The notes below the pieces were generated by a model. The model was not told the DNA's origin, searched no databases, and saw nothing but the letters and a program-made list of their open reading frames with translations. A program made the translations under genes and the position numbers. DNA of 50,112 nucleotides from Acidobacteriota bacterium (GTDB lineage: Bacteria; Acidobacteriota; Thermoanaerobaculia; UBA5066; Gp7-AA6): positions 1-50,112 of the forward strand of contig DAHUXD010000001.1 in assembly GCA_027307335.1 (NCBI GenBank). The letters are read 5' to 3'. Below are positions 10,671 through 27,370 of the stretch, piece after piece; within the stretch, counting starts at the first letter, position 1, and each line of letters starts with the position of its first letter.

Positions 10671-11270
10671 TCAATCCGGATCCTTCGGGTCCGGAGAGGA
10701 AGGTTGTTCGTTCGTCCGCCGCATCGCGGCGTCGATCCCCTGCGTCAACCAGATTCTCAGGGCCTCCACGGCCCTCTCGACGGCTTCGGCGTACGCCGTG
10801 CGCTCGGCCTTCGCCACGGGCTCGAGCACGTAATCGGCGAGGTCGCGCTCCCGCGAGTACCGCTCCCCGCGGATGCCGACGCGCAGCCGCGGGAACTCGG
10901 TCGTTCCGAGATGGGCAACCACCGACCGGAGTCCCTTCTGCGTGCCGCCCGAGCCGCTCCGCCGAAGGCGCAGCGCGCCGAGCGGCAGATCGATCTCGTC
11001 GACGACCACGCAGAGGTCCGCGGGTTCGACGCCGTACTTGTGACAAAGAGCCGAGACCGCCTCGCCCGAGGCGTTCATGTACGTCTGGGGCAGCGCGAGC
11101 AGCAGCGAAATGCCCCCGACGCTGCCCCGCCCGACCCGGGACGCGCACTCGCGCGACCGGATCCGGATCCCTTCTTCCGCCGCCAGCGCCTCCACCACTC
11201 GGAATCCCGCGTTGTGGCGGGTCTCGGCGTACTCGTCTCCCGGGTTGCCGAGCCCGACGATGGCGCGCAG
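10671..11270 (-). CDS. pth: Peptidyl-tRNA hydrolase, apparent CTG start
   Basis: Pth recycles peptidyl-tRNA released by stalled ribosomes and is normally essential. The catalytic N-terminus GLGNPG then TRHNAG (E. coli N10 and H20 equivalents) is encoded only from about 11255 down, where no ATG, GTG or TTG exists upstream. The frame reads TAG (the rplY stop, 11274-11276), CTT, then CTG at 11268-11270. AAGGAG sits 9 nt before that CTG, so CTG is the best start and gives 199 residues. The first GTG (11198) would delete the active site. The DEIDLPLG Asp is present, but the GGHNGL region reads GGTQKGL, so the Asn114 position is changed. The gene is in the same frame as rplY, one sense codon after its stop. 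Confidence 0.88.
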   Translation of the reverse strand: MRAIVGLGNPGDEYAETRHNAGFRVVEALAAEEGIRIRSRECASRVGRGSVGGISLLLALPQTYMNASGEAVSALCHKYGVEPADLCVVVDEIDLPLGALRLRRSGSGGTQKGLRSVVAHLGTTEFPRLRVGIRGERYSRERDLADYVLEPVAKAERTAYAEAVERAVEALRIWLTQGIDAAMRRTNEQPSSPDPKDPD

Positions 11271-11273
11271 AAG

Positions 11274-11978
11274 CTACTTCTCCTTTTCCTTCTCCTTCTT
11301 CTCGGGCTTCTCCTCGCCGCCTTCCTCCTCGGCGACGGCCTTGCCCTTCTTGAGGACCTCGGGCTCGGTCGGCTCCGCGGCACCCTCGGCCGCGGCGGCC
11401 GCGGGCTCCTCCTCGCGAGCCGGGTGCACGACGTGAACGACGATCTTCTCCGGGTTGTCGACGATCCGCACGCCCTCGGGCGCCGGGATCTGCGCAATGC
11501 GCAGCGCGTCGCCGATCGCGAGCTCGGTCACGTCCACGGCGAGGCCGGCGGGGATGTTGCCCGGGAGGCACTCGATCTCGACCTCGCGGGTGACGGTGTC
11601 GAGGATGCCCCCCTCGGTCTTCACTCCCTTGGCGACGCCGACCACCTCGATCGGAACCTTGAGCGTGATCTTCACGTCCATCAGGACGCGCACGAAGTCG
11701 ATGTGGAGCGGCCGGCGCGACACCGGGTCGCGCTGCATCTCGCGGATCATGGCGTGCCGGCTCTGATCCGAGCCGCCGAGCTTCAGCAGGAAGATGGTGT
11801 TCTCGCCCGCGCCCTCGCGGAAGACGTCCGAAAGGGCCTTCCGGTCCACCGTGATGGGGACGTTCGGCTTCCCCGCCCCGTAGACCACGGCCGGGATGCG
11901 GCCGGCCGCGCGGGAGCGGCGGGCCTCGTTCTTCCCGTTCGTCGAGCGCTTCTCGACGGTCAGTTCGATCGTTTTCAT
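11274..11978 (-). CDS. rplY: 50S ribosomal protein L25, long CTC form
   Basis: This protein binds 5S rRNA. The 234-residue product is the two-domain TL5/CTC type. The L25 domain (ELTVEKRSTNGKNEARRSRAAG then IPAVVYGAGK) is followed by the C-terminal beta domain (KVPIEVVGVAKGVKTEGGIL then VEIECLPGNIPAGLAVDVTELAIGD). A 60-residue Ala/Glu/Lys tail (KPEKKEKEKEK) completes it. The Lys-Glu codons at the end also create the AAGGAG used by pth. The ATG follows AGAGG at about 10 nt. rplY-pth adjacency is common in bacteria. Confidence 0.95.
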   Translation of the reverse strand: MKTIELTVEKRSTNGKNEARRSRAAGRIPAVVYGAGKPNVPITVDRKALSDVFREGAGENTIFLLKLGGSDQSRHAMIREMQRDPVSRRPLHIDFVRVLMDVKITLKVPIEVVGVAKGVKTEGGILDTVTREVEIECLPGNIPAGLAVDVTELAIGDALRIAQIPAPEGVRIVDNPEKIVVHVVHPAREEEPAAAAAEGAAEPTEPEVLKKGKAVAEEEGGEEKPEKKEKEKEK

Positions 11979-12017
11979 GCGTTTCGTACCTCTTTTCGAA
12001 CTCCGGCCCTCGCTCTA

Positions 12018-12187
12018 TTCTCTTTCGAACCCGGGCCCTCGCTTCGCTCGGCCCCGGTTTCGACGCGGCGTACTCCCGCCGCGGGTCGGCCCAGGCTCGA
12101 CGCGGCGTTCCCTCGCCGCCGTTCTCTTTTCGAGCCTGGCCCTCGCTCCGCTCGGCCCAGGCTCGACGCGGCGTTCCCTCGCCGCGG
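12018..12187. repeat. 66-bp-period array of double hairpins between prs and rplY
   Basis: The 229-bp prs-rplY gap (11979-12207) contains no gene. It holds two full units (about 12018-12084 and 12122-12187) and a half unit between them. A perfect 34-bp direct repeat is at 12086-12119 and 12152-12185. Each full unit has a TCGA-flanked dyad (TCGAGCCTGG/CCAGGCTCGA in unit two; TCGAACCCGG/CCGGTTTCGA in unit one) and a second hairpin (CGCGGCG/CGCCGCG in unit two). Differences between units largely preserve pairing in the dyad. It resembles a BIME/REP-type element; a role in the mRNA between prs and rplY is possible. Confidence 0.7.
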
Positions 12188-12207
12188 TTCGCGCAAAGAG
12201 GCGGATT

Positions 12208-13167
12208 CTACACAAAAAGCGACGAAACGGAAGCCCCGTCGTGGATGCGCTGGATGGCCTCTCCCAGGAGAGGGGCGACCGAAAGGGCCCGGATCCGGGG
12301 GCACTTGGCCGCGGCGGCCTCGACCGGGATCGTATTGGTCACGAGCAGGGTCTGGAGCCGGGACGCCTCGATCCGCTCGAGGGCGGGGCCGGAGAAGACG
12401 CCGTGGACGGCCGCGGCGTACGTCCGGCGCGCGCCCTGGCGGCGCAGGGCCGCCTCGGCCTGGACCAGCGTCCCGGCCGTGTCGATGATGTCGTCCAGGA
12501 TCAGGGCGTCCTTCCCTTCCACCTCGCCGACGACGTTCAGGATCTCGGTCTCGTTCTTCCCCGTGCGCCGCTTGTCGATGACCGCGAGCGCGGCGTCCAG
12601 CCGTTTCGCGATCGCCCGGGCGCGCGTCAACCCGCCGACGTCGGGCGACACGATCACGAGCTCCTCCGTCTCGATCTTGCGGATCGCGTCGAGGATGACG
12701 GGAGCCGCGAACAGGTGATCGACCGGGATGTTGAAGAAGCCCTGGATCTGGGCCGCGTGGAGGTCCATGGTCAGGATGCGGTCGGCGCCCGCAGCCGTCA
12801 GGAGGTCGGCCATGAGCTTCGCCGCGATCGGCACCCGCGGCTTGTCCTTCTTGTCCTGGCGGGCGTAGCCGAAGTACGGCATCACGGCGGTGATGCGCGA
12901 CGCCGACGAGCGCCGGAACGCGTCGAGGAGGATCAGCAGCTCCATCATGGAGTCGTTGACGGGCGAGCACGTCGGCTGCACGACGAAGACGTCGGCGCCC
13001 CGCACGTTCTCGTCGATCTGGCAGTAGTCCTCGCCGTCCGAGAAGTTGTAGAGCGTCAGCTCGCCGAGCGGAATGCCGAGGTACGCGCAGATCTCGCGCG
13101 CGAGCCCCGGGTGCGCGCGGCCGGAGAAGATCTTGAGGTCCCCGTAATTGAATGCGTGAGAGGTCAA
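12208..13167 (-). CDS. prs: Ribose-phosphate pyrophosphokinase
   Basis: The enzyme makes PRPP from ribose 5-phosphate and ATP for nucleotide, His and Trp synthesis. The 319-residue product has the family blocks MELLILLDAFRRSSASRITAVMPYFGYARQDKK, the MDLHAAQIQGFF loop, VIVSPDVGG and the PRPP loop LILDDIIDTAGTL. The usual FSDGEI stretch reads FSDGEDYCQI, a mild variant. No ATG fits the N-terminus, so I use TTG 13165-13167, 9 nt downstream of a TAGAAT box. E. coli also has prs next to ispE and lolB, and that order is kept here with spoVG and a tRNA inserted. Confidence 0.96.
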   Translation of the reverse strand: MTSHAFNYGDLKIFSGRAHPGLAREICAYLGIPLGELTLYNFSDGEDYCQIDENVRGADVFVVQPTCSPVNDSMMELLILLDAFRRSSASRITAVMPYFGYARQDKKDKPRVPIAAKLMADLLTAAGADRILTMDLHAAQIQGFFNIPVDHLFAAPVILDAIRKIETEELVIVSPDVGGLTRARAIAKRLDAALAVIDKRRTGKNETEILNVVGEVEGKDALILDDIIDTAGTLVQAEAALRRQGARRTYAAAVHGVFSGPALERIEASRLQTLLVTNTIPVEAAAAKCPRIRALSVAPLLGEAIQRIHDGASVSSLFV

Positions 13168-20343: not shown

Positions 20344-21249
20344 GTGGAGGAATTCCCCGGTTCTTTTCCGCCGTCGGTGGCTCCCCCGCGGACTCGCTGG
20401 CGGTTCCTCGAAAATCCGCTCTTCCACGCGGCGCTTCTGGCCGCGACGTTCGTGACGACGACGCTCGCCGGCGGCGCCGCGTTCTCGACCGGCGGCGGCC
20501 CGCTGCTCGGCGGGCGCTTCGCCGACGGCCTCGCGTTCTCCGTGCCGCTCCTCCTGATCCTCGGCATCCACGAGCTCGGCCACTACGCGATGTGCCGGCG
20601 TTACGGGATCGCGGCCACGCTCCCGTACTTCATCCCCTCACCCTTTCTGAACCTGATCGGCACGTTCGGCGCGGTCATCCGCATCAAGGAGCCGATCCGG
20701 CGCAAGAGGCAGCTTCTCGACGTGGGCGCCGCCGGTCCGCTCGCCGGCTTCTTCACCGCGATCCCCTTCCTGCTCTACGGCGTCGCGCGCCCGAAGCCCT
20801 CGACGACGCCGCTCGGCGAGGGCACCGTGCTCTTCGACTATCCCCTGCTCGTGCGCTGGGCGCAGCGCTGGGTCCACGTGGGGCCGTACACGAGCGCGAC
20901 GGTCCACGAGCATCCGACGTTCATGGCCGCGTGGTTCGGCCTCCTGGTCACGTGCCTGAACCTCCTTCCGATCGGGCAGCTCGACGGCGGCCACGTGCTC
21001 CGCGCCGCGGTCGGCCGCCGCCAGCCGATCGCGTCCGGGATCGCGCTTGCGCTCTGCATCGTCGCGGGCGTCACCCATTCCGCGGTCTGGCTCGTGCTGC
21101 CGGTCGCGATCGTCGTCGTTGCCGGCCTCGCCCACCCTCCCGTGGAAGACGACGATCAGCCGCTCGACTTCGCGCGCACGCTGGTCGCGCTCCTCTGCGT
21201 GGCCGTCTTCCTCGTCTGCTTCAGCCTGACGCCGATCCGGATCGTCTAG
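20344..21249 (+). CDS. M50-family site-2 protease-like membrane metalloprotease
   Basis: This 301-residue multi-pass protein has the zinc motif HELGH (about residues 76-80) inside a membrane helix ([18 protein letters not shown]). The third ligand motif is [12 protein letters not shown] (about 209-220). These mark an active intramembrane zinc protease of the M50 group. The order resembles plant EGY/S2P-like enzymes without a PDZ domain. The start is GTG 20344, 1 bp after the MshEN paralogue stop, with GGAGG absent. The stop lies inside the convergent dtd gene (29-bp overlap). The substrate is unknown. Confidence 0.88.
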
Positions 21250-24827: not shown

Positions 24828-27370
24828 TTCCCTCTGAGCCGCTCCTGGAGCGCGGCGAGCAGCGACAGCGCGGCGATCGGCGTCAACTGGTCGAGGTCGA
24901 CGGCGCGGAGCTTCTCGAGCGCGAGCTCTTCGCCGCCGGAGAAGAGCAAGTACTGTCCGGCGCCGGCGCTCTTTCCCTCCCTGCGCGCGAGGATGGGCGC
25001 GCCCTCGACGTCGAGCTCCTGCCGCTCGAGATTGGCGAGGACCTCGCGCGCCCGCGCGATCACCACCTCGGGCAGCCCGGCGAGCTCCGCGACGTGAATC
25101 CCGTAACTGCGGTCGGCCGCGCCCGGGACCACCTTGCGGAGGAACACGACACGTCCGCCGACTTCCTTGACCGCCATCGTCGTGTTGACGACCGCGGGGC
25201 GCACGAGCGCGATCTCCGTGAGCTCGTGGTAGTGAGTGGCGAAGAGGACGAATCCGGCGCGCTCCCGCTCGTCGTGGAGGTGCTCGAGCATCGCCCAGGC
25301 GATCGAGAGGCCGTCGAAGGTGGACGTGCCCCGCCCGACCTCGTCGAGGACGACGAGGCTCCGCGCGGTCGCCTCGCGCAGGATCGCCGCCGACTCGAGC
25401 ATCTCGACCATGAACGTGGACTCGCCCCGCGACAGGTGGTCGGCGGCGCCGACCCGGGTGAAGATGCGGTCGACGAGCGACAGCTCCAGGGCGTCCGCCG
25501 GCACGAACGAACCGGCCTGCGCGAGGAGGACGATGGTCGCGACCTGCCGCAGGTAGGTCGACTTGCCGCCCATGTTCGGTCCGGTCACGAGCTGGATGCG
25601 CCGTTCCTCGGCGAGGTCGGTGTCGTTCGGGACGAAGGGCTCCTCGCGCCGGAGCCGCTCGACGATCGGATGCCGCCCGGCGACGATCCGCAGCCGGGGC
25701 TTCTCCGACAGGCGCGGGCGCGTCCAGCGTCCGGAGCGCGCGACCGCGGCGAGCGAGAGCTGGACGTCGAGCTCGGCGAGCGCCGTCGCCGTCCGCGTCA
25801 CGCGGTCTCCCGCCGCGGCGAGGTCCGCGAGGAGCTCGCCGTAGAGGCGCGTCTCGATCGCGCCGATGCGGTCTTCGGCGCCGAGAATCTTCTCCTCGAG
25901 CTCCTTCAGCGCGGGCGTGACGAAGCGCTCCGCGTTCGCGAGCGACTGCCTCCGGATCCAGTCGGCGGGGACCTTCTCGCGATGCGCCGCGCCGACCTCG
26001 AGCGAGTAGCCGAAGACGCGATTGAACTTCACGCGCACGGAGGCGATGCCGGAACGGCGGCGCTCCTCGGCCTCGATCGCGAGCAGCGCGCCCTGCGCAT
26101 CGCGGCGCAGGCCCCGCAGCGCGTCGAGCTCGGCGTCGGCGCCCTCGCGGACGACCGCGCCCGCGTTGGCGAGGGCGGGAGGATCGTCCGCGAGCGTGCG
26201 GGCGATCCGCCCCACGCAGTCCGCGGTGTCGGGGACGGCCTCGCAGACCGACCGGAGCCGCACCGCCTTCAGGTCCGCCGCGGCGGCGAGCACGCCGGGA
26301 ACCGCCCGGAGGCCCGCGCCGAGCGCCGCCACGTCCCGCGGTCCCGCGGTGCCGACGGCGACGCGCGCGAACCGCCGTTCGAGATCGCCGACGGGTTCGA
26401 GCGCCGCGGCCACCGCCTCCGCCGCATCCTCCCGGGTCACGAGCTCCTCGACGGCGTCCCAGCGCGCCTCGAGCTCGAGCGGATCGAGCGACGGATGCGC
26501 GAGCGTCTCCCGCAGGGCCCGGGCGCCGGGCGGCGTGCGGGTGCGGTCGAGCAGCGCCAGGAGGCTGCGCTCGCGCGCCCCCTCGGTGGACTCGAAGAGC
26601 TCCAGCGTGGCGATCGCCGAGGCGTCGAGCCCCATTCGGGAACCGAACGCGAGCGCCGACGGCGGCCCGACGTGGTCGAGCCGTCCCGGCCGCATCTCGC
26701 GGGCGTAGGCGAGCGCCGCGGCGGCGGCGGCCCGCGCGGGAGGGGCGAAACTCTCGGGCGCCGTCCCCGCCGCCAGACACCCGTCCCACCACGCGTCCGG
26801 CCGCCGCGTCGTCGCGCCGGCCGCCGCCGCGCCCTCGGGCAGGAGGATTTCACGGGGGCGGAGCAGCGCGAGCGCGTCCGCGACGCGGGCCTCGCGGATC
26901 GTGCCGGCGAGGAACCGCCCGGTCGAGAGATCGAGGAACGCCGCGCCCCACTCCGGCTCCGCCGGGCGGAGCGCCGCGAGGTACGAGGGCGCGTCCGGCA
27001 CCAGCGACTCCGGATCGAGCACGGTGCCGGGGGTGACGACCCGCGTGATGTCCCGGCGGACGAGTCCCTTCGAGCCCCGGGCCTCCTCGACCTGGTCGCA
27101 GATCGCGACCTTCCGACCGGCGGCGACGAGCCGCGCGACGTGGTGATCGACGCTGTGGAACGGCACGCCGCACATCGGCGCCTCGATGTCGGAGTCGCGG
27201 TGGCGGCGCGTCAGCGCGATGCCGAGGAGGGGCGCGGCCTCCTTCGCGTCGTCGAAGAACATCTCGTAGAAGTCGCCCAGCCGGTAGAAGAGGATCGCGT
27301 CGGGCACGCGGCTCTTCATCTCGAAGTACTGGCGGAGCATCGGAGTCACGCGCGCGGTGGGGACGCTCAC
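24824..27370 (-). CDS. mutS: DNA mismatch repair protein MutS
   Basis: MutS recognises mismatches and starts repair. The 848-residue product matches the family length. The mismatch-reading motif is DFYEMFFDDA (about residues 32-41; Phe-x-Glu present). The ABC ATPase has Walker A TGPNMGGKSTYLRQ, the signature SRGESTFMVEM and Walker B LVVLDEVGRGTSTFDG, with ATHYHEL as the H-loop. The start is GTG 27368-27370, 8 nt downstream of TATGCT. It diverges from tsaB over 53 bp and is coupled to nagZ. No mutL is in the window. Confidence 0.98.
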   Translation of the reverse strand: MSVPTARVTPMLRQYFEMKSRVPDAILFYRLGDFYEMFFDDAKEAAPLLGIALTRRHRDSDIEAPMCGVPFHSVDHHVARLVAAGRKVAICDQVEEARGSKGLVRRDITRVVTPGTVLDPESLVPDAPSYLAALRPAEPEWGAAFLDLSTGRFLAGTIREARVADALALLRPREILLPEGAAAAGATTRRPDAWWDGCLAAGTAPESFAPPARAAAAAALAYAREMRPGRLDHVGPPSALAFGSRMGLDASAIATLELFESTEGARERSLLALLDRTRTPPGARALRETLAHPSLDPLELEARWDAVEELVTREDAAEAVAAALEPVGDLERRFARVAVGTAGPRDVAALGAGLRAVPGVLAAAADLKAVRLRSVCEAVPDTADCVGRIARTLADDPPALANAGAVVREGADAELDALRGLRRDAQGALLAIEAEERRRSGIASVRVKFNRVFGYSLEVGAAHREKVPADWIRRQSLANAERFVTPALKELEEKILGAEDRIGAIETRLYGELLADLAAAGDRVTRTATALAELDVQLSLAAVARSGRWTRPRLSEKPRLRIVAGRHPIVERLRREEPFVPNDTDLAEERRIQLVTGPNMGGKSTYLRQVATIVLLAQAGSFVPADALELSLVDRIFTRVGAADHLSRGESTFMVEMLESAAILREATARSLVVLDEVGRGTSTFDGLSIAWAMLEHLHDERERAGFVLFATHYHELTEIALVRPAVVNTTMAVKEVGGRVVFLRKVVPGAADRSYGIHVAELAGLPEVVIARAREVLANLERQELDVEGAPILARREGKSAGAGQYLLFSGGEELALEKLRAVDLDQLTPIAALSLLAALQERLRGK

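Follow-up and report, generated by a model that had tools for sequence, protein, structure and literature searches.

The window, by which we mean the whole 50,112-nucleotide stretch of DNA analyzed, carries on its minus strand an rplY gene followed directly by pth (Table 1). The junction reads ...AAGGAG AAG TAG CTT CTG CGC GCC ATC GTC GGG CTC GGC AAC CCG..., and the two genes share one reading frame, with one codon separating the rplY stop from the CTG. An earlier note on this DNA had proposed that pth starts at this CTG, and re-reading of the minus strand upheld both its coordinates and its 9-nt spacing from AAGGAG. It had also reported that no ATG, GTG, or TTG lies ahead of the catalytic motifs, and this proved correct, as none is found in the window between the rplY TAG and the catalytic Asn and His motifs. 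The first such codon of the pth frame is the GTG at 11198, which would give a product of 175 residues lacking both GLGNPG and TRHN. Only two start-like codons are located between the TAG and GLGNPG, the CTG five codons before the motif and an ATC two codons before it.

Table 1. Features of the rplY-pth region, in window coordinates
Feature	Position	Strand	Remarks
pth, peptidyl-tRNA hydrolase, 199 aa	10671..11270 (CTG 11270-11268, stop 10673-10671)	-	Matches PF01195 and TIGR00447
CTG, inferred start codon of pth	11268..11270	-	Kept in 3/3 species of family f1; TTG/GTG in relatives
CTT, lone spacer codon from stop to start	11271..11273	-	CGC in f1 relatives, not conserved
TAG, stop codon of rplY	11274..11276	-	TAG or TAA within family f1
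AAGGAG, Shine-Dalgarno-like, in the Lys/Glu tail of rplY	11280..11285	-	9 nt upstream of CTG
rplY, ribosomal protein bL25/Ctc, 234 aa, ATG start	11274..11978	-	TIGR00731, 167.5 bits

The gap of +3 nt from stop to start, with AAGGAG placed 9 nt before the CTG, is the arrangement expected of a termination-reinitiation pair. The fold of the junction in the window was no better than those of shuffled sequences (z -0.4); folds of two relatives began just after the rplY stop, so that the Shine-Dalgarno site was outside the folded region. A pattern search of the source genome for the 3' end of 16S rRNA, the source of the anti-Shine-Dalgarno sequence, returned no match. Upstream of rplY, the gap separating it from prs (11994-12190) contains direct repeats, degenerate and about 40 nt long, with inverted arms (GGCCCAGGCTCGA / TCGAGCCTGGCCC), and TTG is the first possible start codon of prs itself (12208-13167, minus strand).

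The pth product

Peptidyl-tRNA hydrolase (Pth) is an essential enzyme with a clean-up function in translation. The product read from the CTG scored 174.7 bits against TIGR00447 (cut-off 100) and gave a full-length match of 204 bits to PF01195, and 36 solved sequences of the Pth family align to it from residue 2-4 onward. When the protein was instead begun at the GTG at 11198, the NCBIfam pth match started at profile position 45 rather than at position 2. The catalytic Asn of GLGNPG and His of TRHN, as aligned to the solved structures, are retained only with a start located upstream of 11198. Gene finders restricted to ATG, GTG, and TTG would thus cut Pth to 175 residues and lose both catalytic residues, Asn and His. 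Since the E. coli gene starts with GTG, there is nothing exceptional about a weak start codon on pth as such.

This is the sole Pth gene of the source genome, and Pth2, a second hydrolase that would ease the need for Pth, was not found in the three genomes of family f1. An archaeal-type Pth2 (PF01981) is present beside Pth in two genomes of family f3 (G004 C155:10466-10801 and G006 C244:5086-5418), and none was found in the rest of the order.

Conservation of the CTG codon in family f1

Our sample of family f1 comprised three species, the window included, and the Pth of the window is 67% and 72% identical to those of the two relatives, which belong to different genera. One further locus, L032 (JAIVJS010000023.1, Acidobacteria bacterium MAG7), is identical to L003 and was not counted as independent. 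The junctions of the relatives read TAG CGC CTG CGC GCG ATC GTC and TAA CGC CTG CGC GCG ATC GTC, with AAGGAGAAG preceding the rplY stop in both. In all three species, therefore, the junction takes the form stop-NNN-CTG and AAGGAG lies 9 nt ahead of the CTG, which is constant while the spacer codon and the stop vary. Judged from these alignments, the CTG is an inherited, fixed trait of family f1. The earlier note had named an ATG in close relatives, with an error in this sequence, as the finding that would speak against a CTG start; we looked for such relatives in f1 and found none.

Across the f1 pth genes, the amino acid is kept in 122 of 210 alignment columns and the codon in only 47 of those 122; by this comparison pth is under purifying selection. 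Two of the eight other CTG codons of pth are also CTG in all three species, and conservation of the CTG is for this reason weak evidence by itself.

We call the CTG a start mainly because of the codon found at the homologous position in relatives. When the junction was aligned more widely, as the earlier note had advised, the codon five before GLGNPG was CTG in f1, TTG in the sister family f3, and GTG or TTG in many Aminicenantes. In the Aminicenantes with GTG or TTG the distance from the rplY stop to GLGNPG is likewise 18 nt, and the start falls 3 nt past the stop. From the sequences compared, pth almost certainly begins with CTG. The codon is one base away from either TTG or GTG, and it was probably derived from a start of that type.

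Non-canonical pth starts behind rplY

We surveyed the class, which is probably Thermoanaerobaculia (Acidobacteriota) to judge from the labels of L032 and L071, and obtained 90 readable pth loci. Similarity placed 57 of these adjacent to rplY, and G015, where the tail of rplY is visible at the contig end, was counted with them to give 58; the other 32 are non-adjacent. Nine loci, all among the 58, are devoid of ATG, GTG, and TTG between the in-frame stop and GLGNPG, and a plausible canonical start is missing from 20 of the 58 adjacent loci versus 0 of the 32 non-adjacent ones. Fisher tests gave p = 0.024 for the strict count of nine and 4e-5 for the count of 20, values that are indicative only, as the loci are related by descent.

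The 20 loci are spread over families f1, f2, f6, f9, f14, f15, and f18. A CTG candidate is present in f1, two genomes of f14, one genome of f18, and L071 (a Thermoanaerobaculia MAG), and such candidates often overlap the rplY stop in the form CTGA. Family f2 belongs to the same order as f1; there pth is mostly out of frame with rplY and the alternative starts overlap the rplY stop: ATT in G008 (as TAATT), ATC in G007 (as TAATC) and in G015 (right after an in-frame TAA), ATA in six genomes (as ATAG or ATAA), and TTG in three. The six genomes with ATA are ambiguous, a GTG two codons before GLGNPG being also possible. Two loci, in f15 and f9, have no obvious start candidate. At L150 (G088) and L166 (G108), pth lies directly behind rplY with neither a canonical codon nor a CTG, ATT, ATC, or ATA candidate at the junction.

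Non-canonical pth starts (CTG in f1, apparently CTG, ATT, ATC, and ATA in related families) are thus found only behind rplY, which suggests that reinitiating ribosomes may be less strict about the start codon.

Start codons of infC and other control genes

Wherever its start was read in the order, infC, encoding IF3, begins with ATT, ATC, or CTG and never with a canonical codon; the start in G001 is masked by N. Most of these genomes have ATC or ATT, and three of genus g4 have CTG (L121 in G018, L122 in G009, and L124 in G003, e.g., AAGGAGGAAAACACC-CTG-GCA), the fourth, L120, having ATC. Within the order, CTG would therefore have replaced ATC as a start codon, which offers a precedent for initiation of pth at CTG. 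The flanking rplY and rpsF begin with ATG, GTG, or TTG wherever their starts were readable in the order, and rplY has ATG in f1.

We also compared 69 ortholog-like pairs between the source genome, of which the screen spanned 309 kb, and G001/G002, and inspected the flagged cases by hand. Only infC and pth were without a canonical start in both. About a dozen more flagged pairs were dropped, because the frame was wrong in high-GC DNA, the N-terminus was of low complexity, or the start lay just inside the match, and the gene at C63 24205-25177 was without a canonical start in G002 only. Also among those dropped was a BCP-type peroxiredoxin gene interrupted by TGA. The in-frame TGA occupies the position of the peroxidatic cysteine in G000 C63 at about 20645-21100 (L203, FYPKADTPG*TAEGCGF), and the same form is found in G002 C78 at about 26300-26900 (L209, FYPRANTPG*TREGSGF). 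The protein is probably a selenoprotein, as SelA is encoded in the genome and the TGA falls at the cysteine position in both genomes.

Alternative readings of the junction

A 30S subunit might bind AAGGAG and initiate at the CTG independently of rplY translation. Both the Shine-Dalgarno-like site and its distance of 9 nt from the CTG are invariant in f1, which favors this reading, but the site lies inside rplY and would be traversed by translating ribosomes, and the restriction of non-canonical starts to loci where pth abuts rplY (20/58 versus 0/32) is hard to reconcile with uncoupled initiation, which we regard as improbable.

Far less probable is readthrough of the TAG to yield an L25-Pth fusion acting as the functional hydrolase, the second option raised in the earlier note. 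The common frame of the two genes in the window and the single codon between stop and CTG would allow it, but neither the frame nor the stop context is kept in relatives. One f1 relative has TAA, the spacer residue varies, pth of f2 is in a different frame, and several Aminicenantes have two successive stops (TGA-TGA or TAA-TAA) before a GTG. Readthrough was accordingly set aside.

An equally slight chance attaches to initiation at the ATC located two codons ahead of GLGNPG, by which the product would lose three residues. This codon is conserved and could serve as a start, as ATC does for infC in family f1, but it lies 18 nt from AAGGAG, which is too far, its use would cut the first beta strand, and the TTG or GTG of relatives falls at the position of the CTG. 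A start within rplY is impossible in f1 owing to the in-frame stop. An error concealing an ATG, GTG, or TTG, conceivable since the window comes from a draft assembly, was rejected as having next to no probability, because the CTG is identical in three independent genomes.

Discussion

Of the options in the earlier note, initiation at CTG by reinitiation is well supported by the CTG in three species and the TTG or GTG at the homologous codon. We consider it likely that pth is translated from the CTG, read as formyl-methionine, by termination-reinitiation after rplY with the aid of AAGGAG, the CTG being fixed in f1 and probably derived from TTG or GTG. Ribosomes would terminate on rplY and reinitiate at the CTG 3 nt downstream, the AAGGAG encoded by the Lys/Glu-rich tail of rplY holding the terminating ribosome 9 nt before a CTG that would be decoded as formyl-methionine. 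Reinitiation in E. coli is confined to short gaps and falls sharply with distance (PMC10666635), and the pairs galT/galK and rplK/rplA, with the same +3 spacing, are proven to be coupled (PMC12548453).

Among bacterial start codons CUG accounts for 0.024%, and its output in E. coli is 0.86% of that of AUG (PMC11497404). Such an efficiency counts against a CTG start, being low for an essential enzyme. Switches from an ancestral AUG start to CUG number 2 of 61,358, and non-AUG starts tend to come with strong Shine-Dalgarno motifs (PMC5622118). The weak CTG would presumably keep Pth output well below that of bL25, and the CTG start may be of benefit through this low Pth:bL25 ratio.

IF3 represses non-canonical starts (PMC5472188), and drop-off of fMet-tRNA results from unfavorable codon-anticodon pairs or low IF3 (PMC10158994). 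A link between initiation fidelity and the supply of Pth is therefore conceivable. More speculatively, and in our view unlikely, pth and infC could form a small regulon in the class, in which selection keeps starts that IF3 discriminates against (CUG, AUU, AUC, and AUA). Translation of both would rise when fidelity or IF3 falls, clean-up would scale with initiation errors and drop-off, and the coupling to rplY would tie pth to ribosome production.

Like pth, infC has a conserved non-canonical start (AUU or AUC) on an essential gene of translation. It is autoregulated through IF3; we know of nothing comparable that connects Pth to the start codon of its gene. To our knowledge, conserved non-canonical start codons are documented for few genes (infC and sigR), and the pth of f1 most likely joins them, with coupled reinitiation at a CTG. 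The sigR gene of Streptomyces resembles pth in its conserved non-canonical start and strong ribosome binding site, and its output is kept lower than that of the partner gene in its operon, as would be the case for pth (PMC5472188). It differs in that sigR starts with GTC, comes first in its pair, and is under proven IF3 control, whereas pth starts with CTG, comes second, and is known from sequence. The galT-galK and rplK-rplA pairs share with rplY-pth an upstream stop 3 nt before the downstream start (PMC12548453), but their coupling is proven where that of rplY-pth is inferred, and rplY-pth has CTG as its downstream start. In Aminicenantes and related bacteria, the rplY/ctc-pth pair is alike in gene order, 18-nt spacing, and the Shine-Dalgarno-like site in the Lys/Glu tail; there pth starts with GTG or TTG, in contrast to the CTG of f1.
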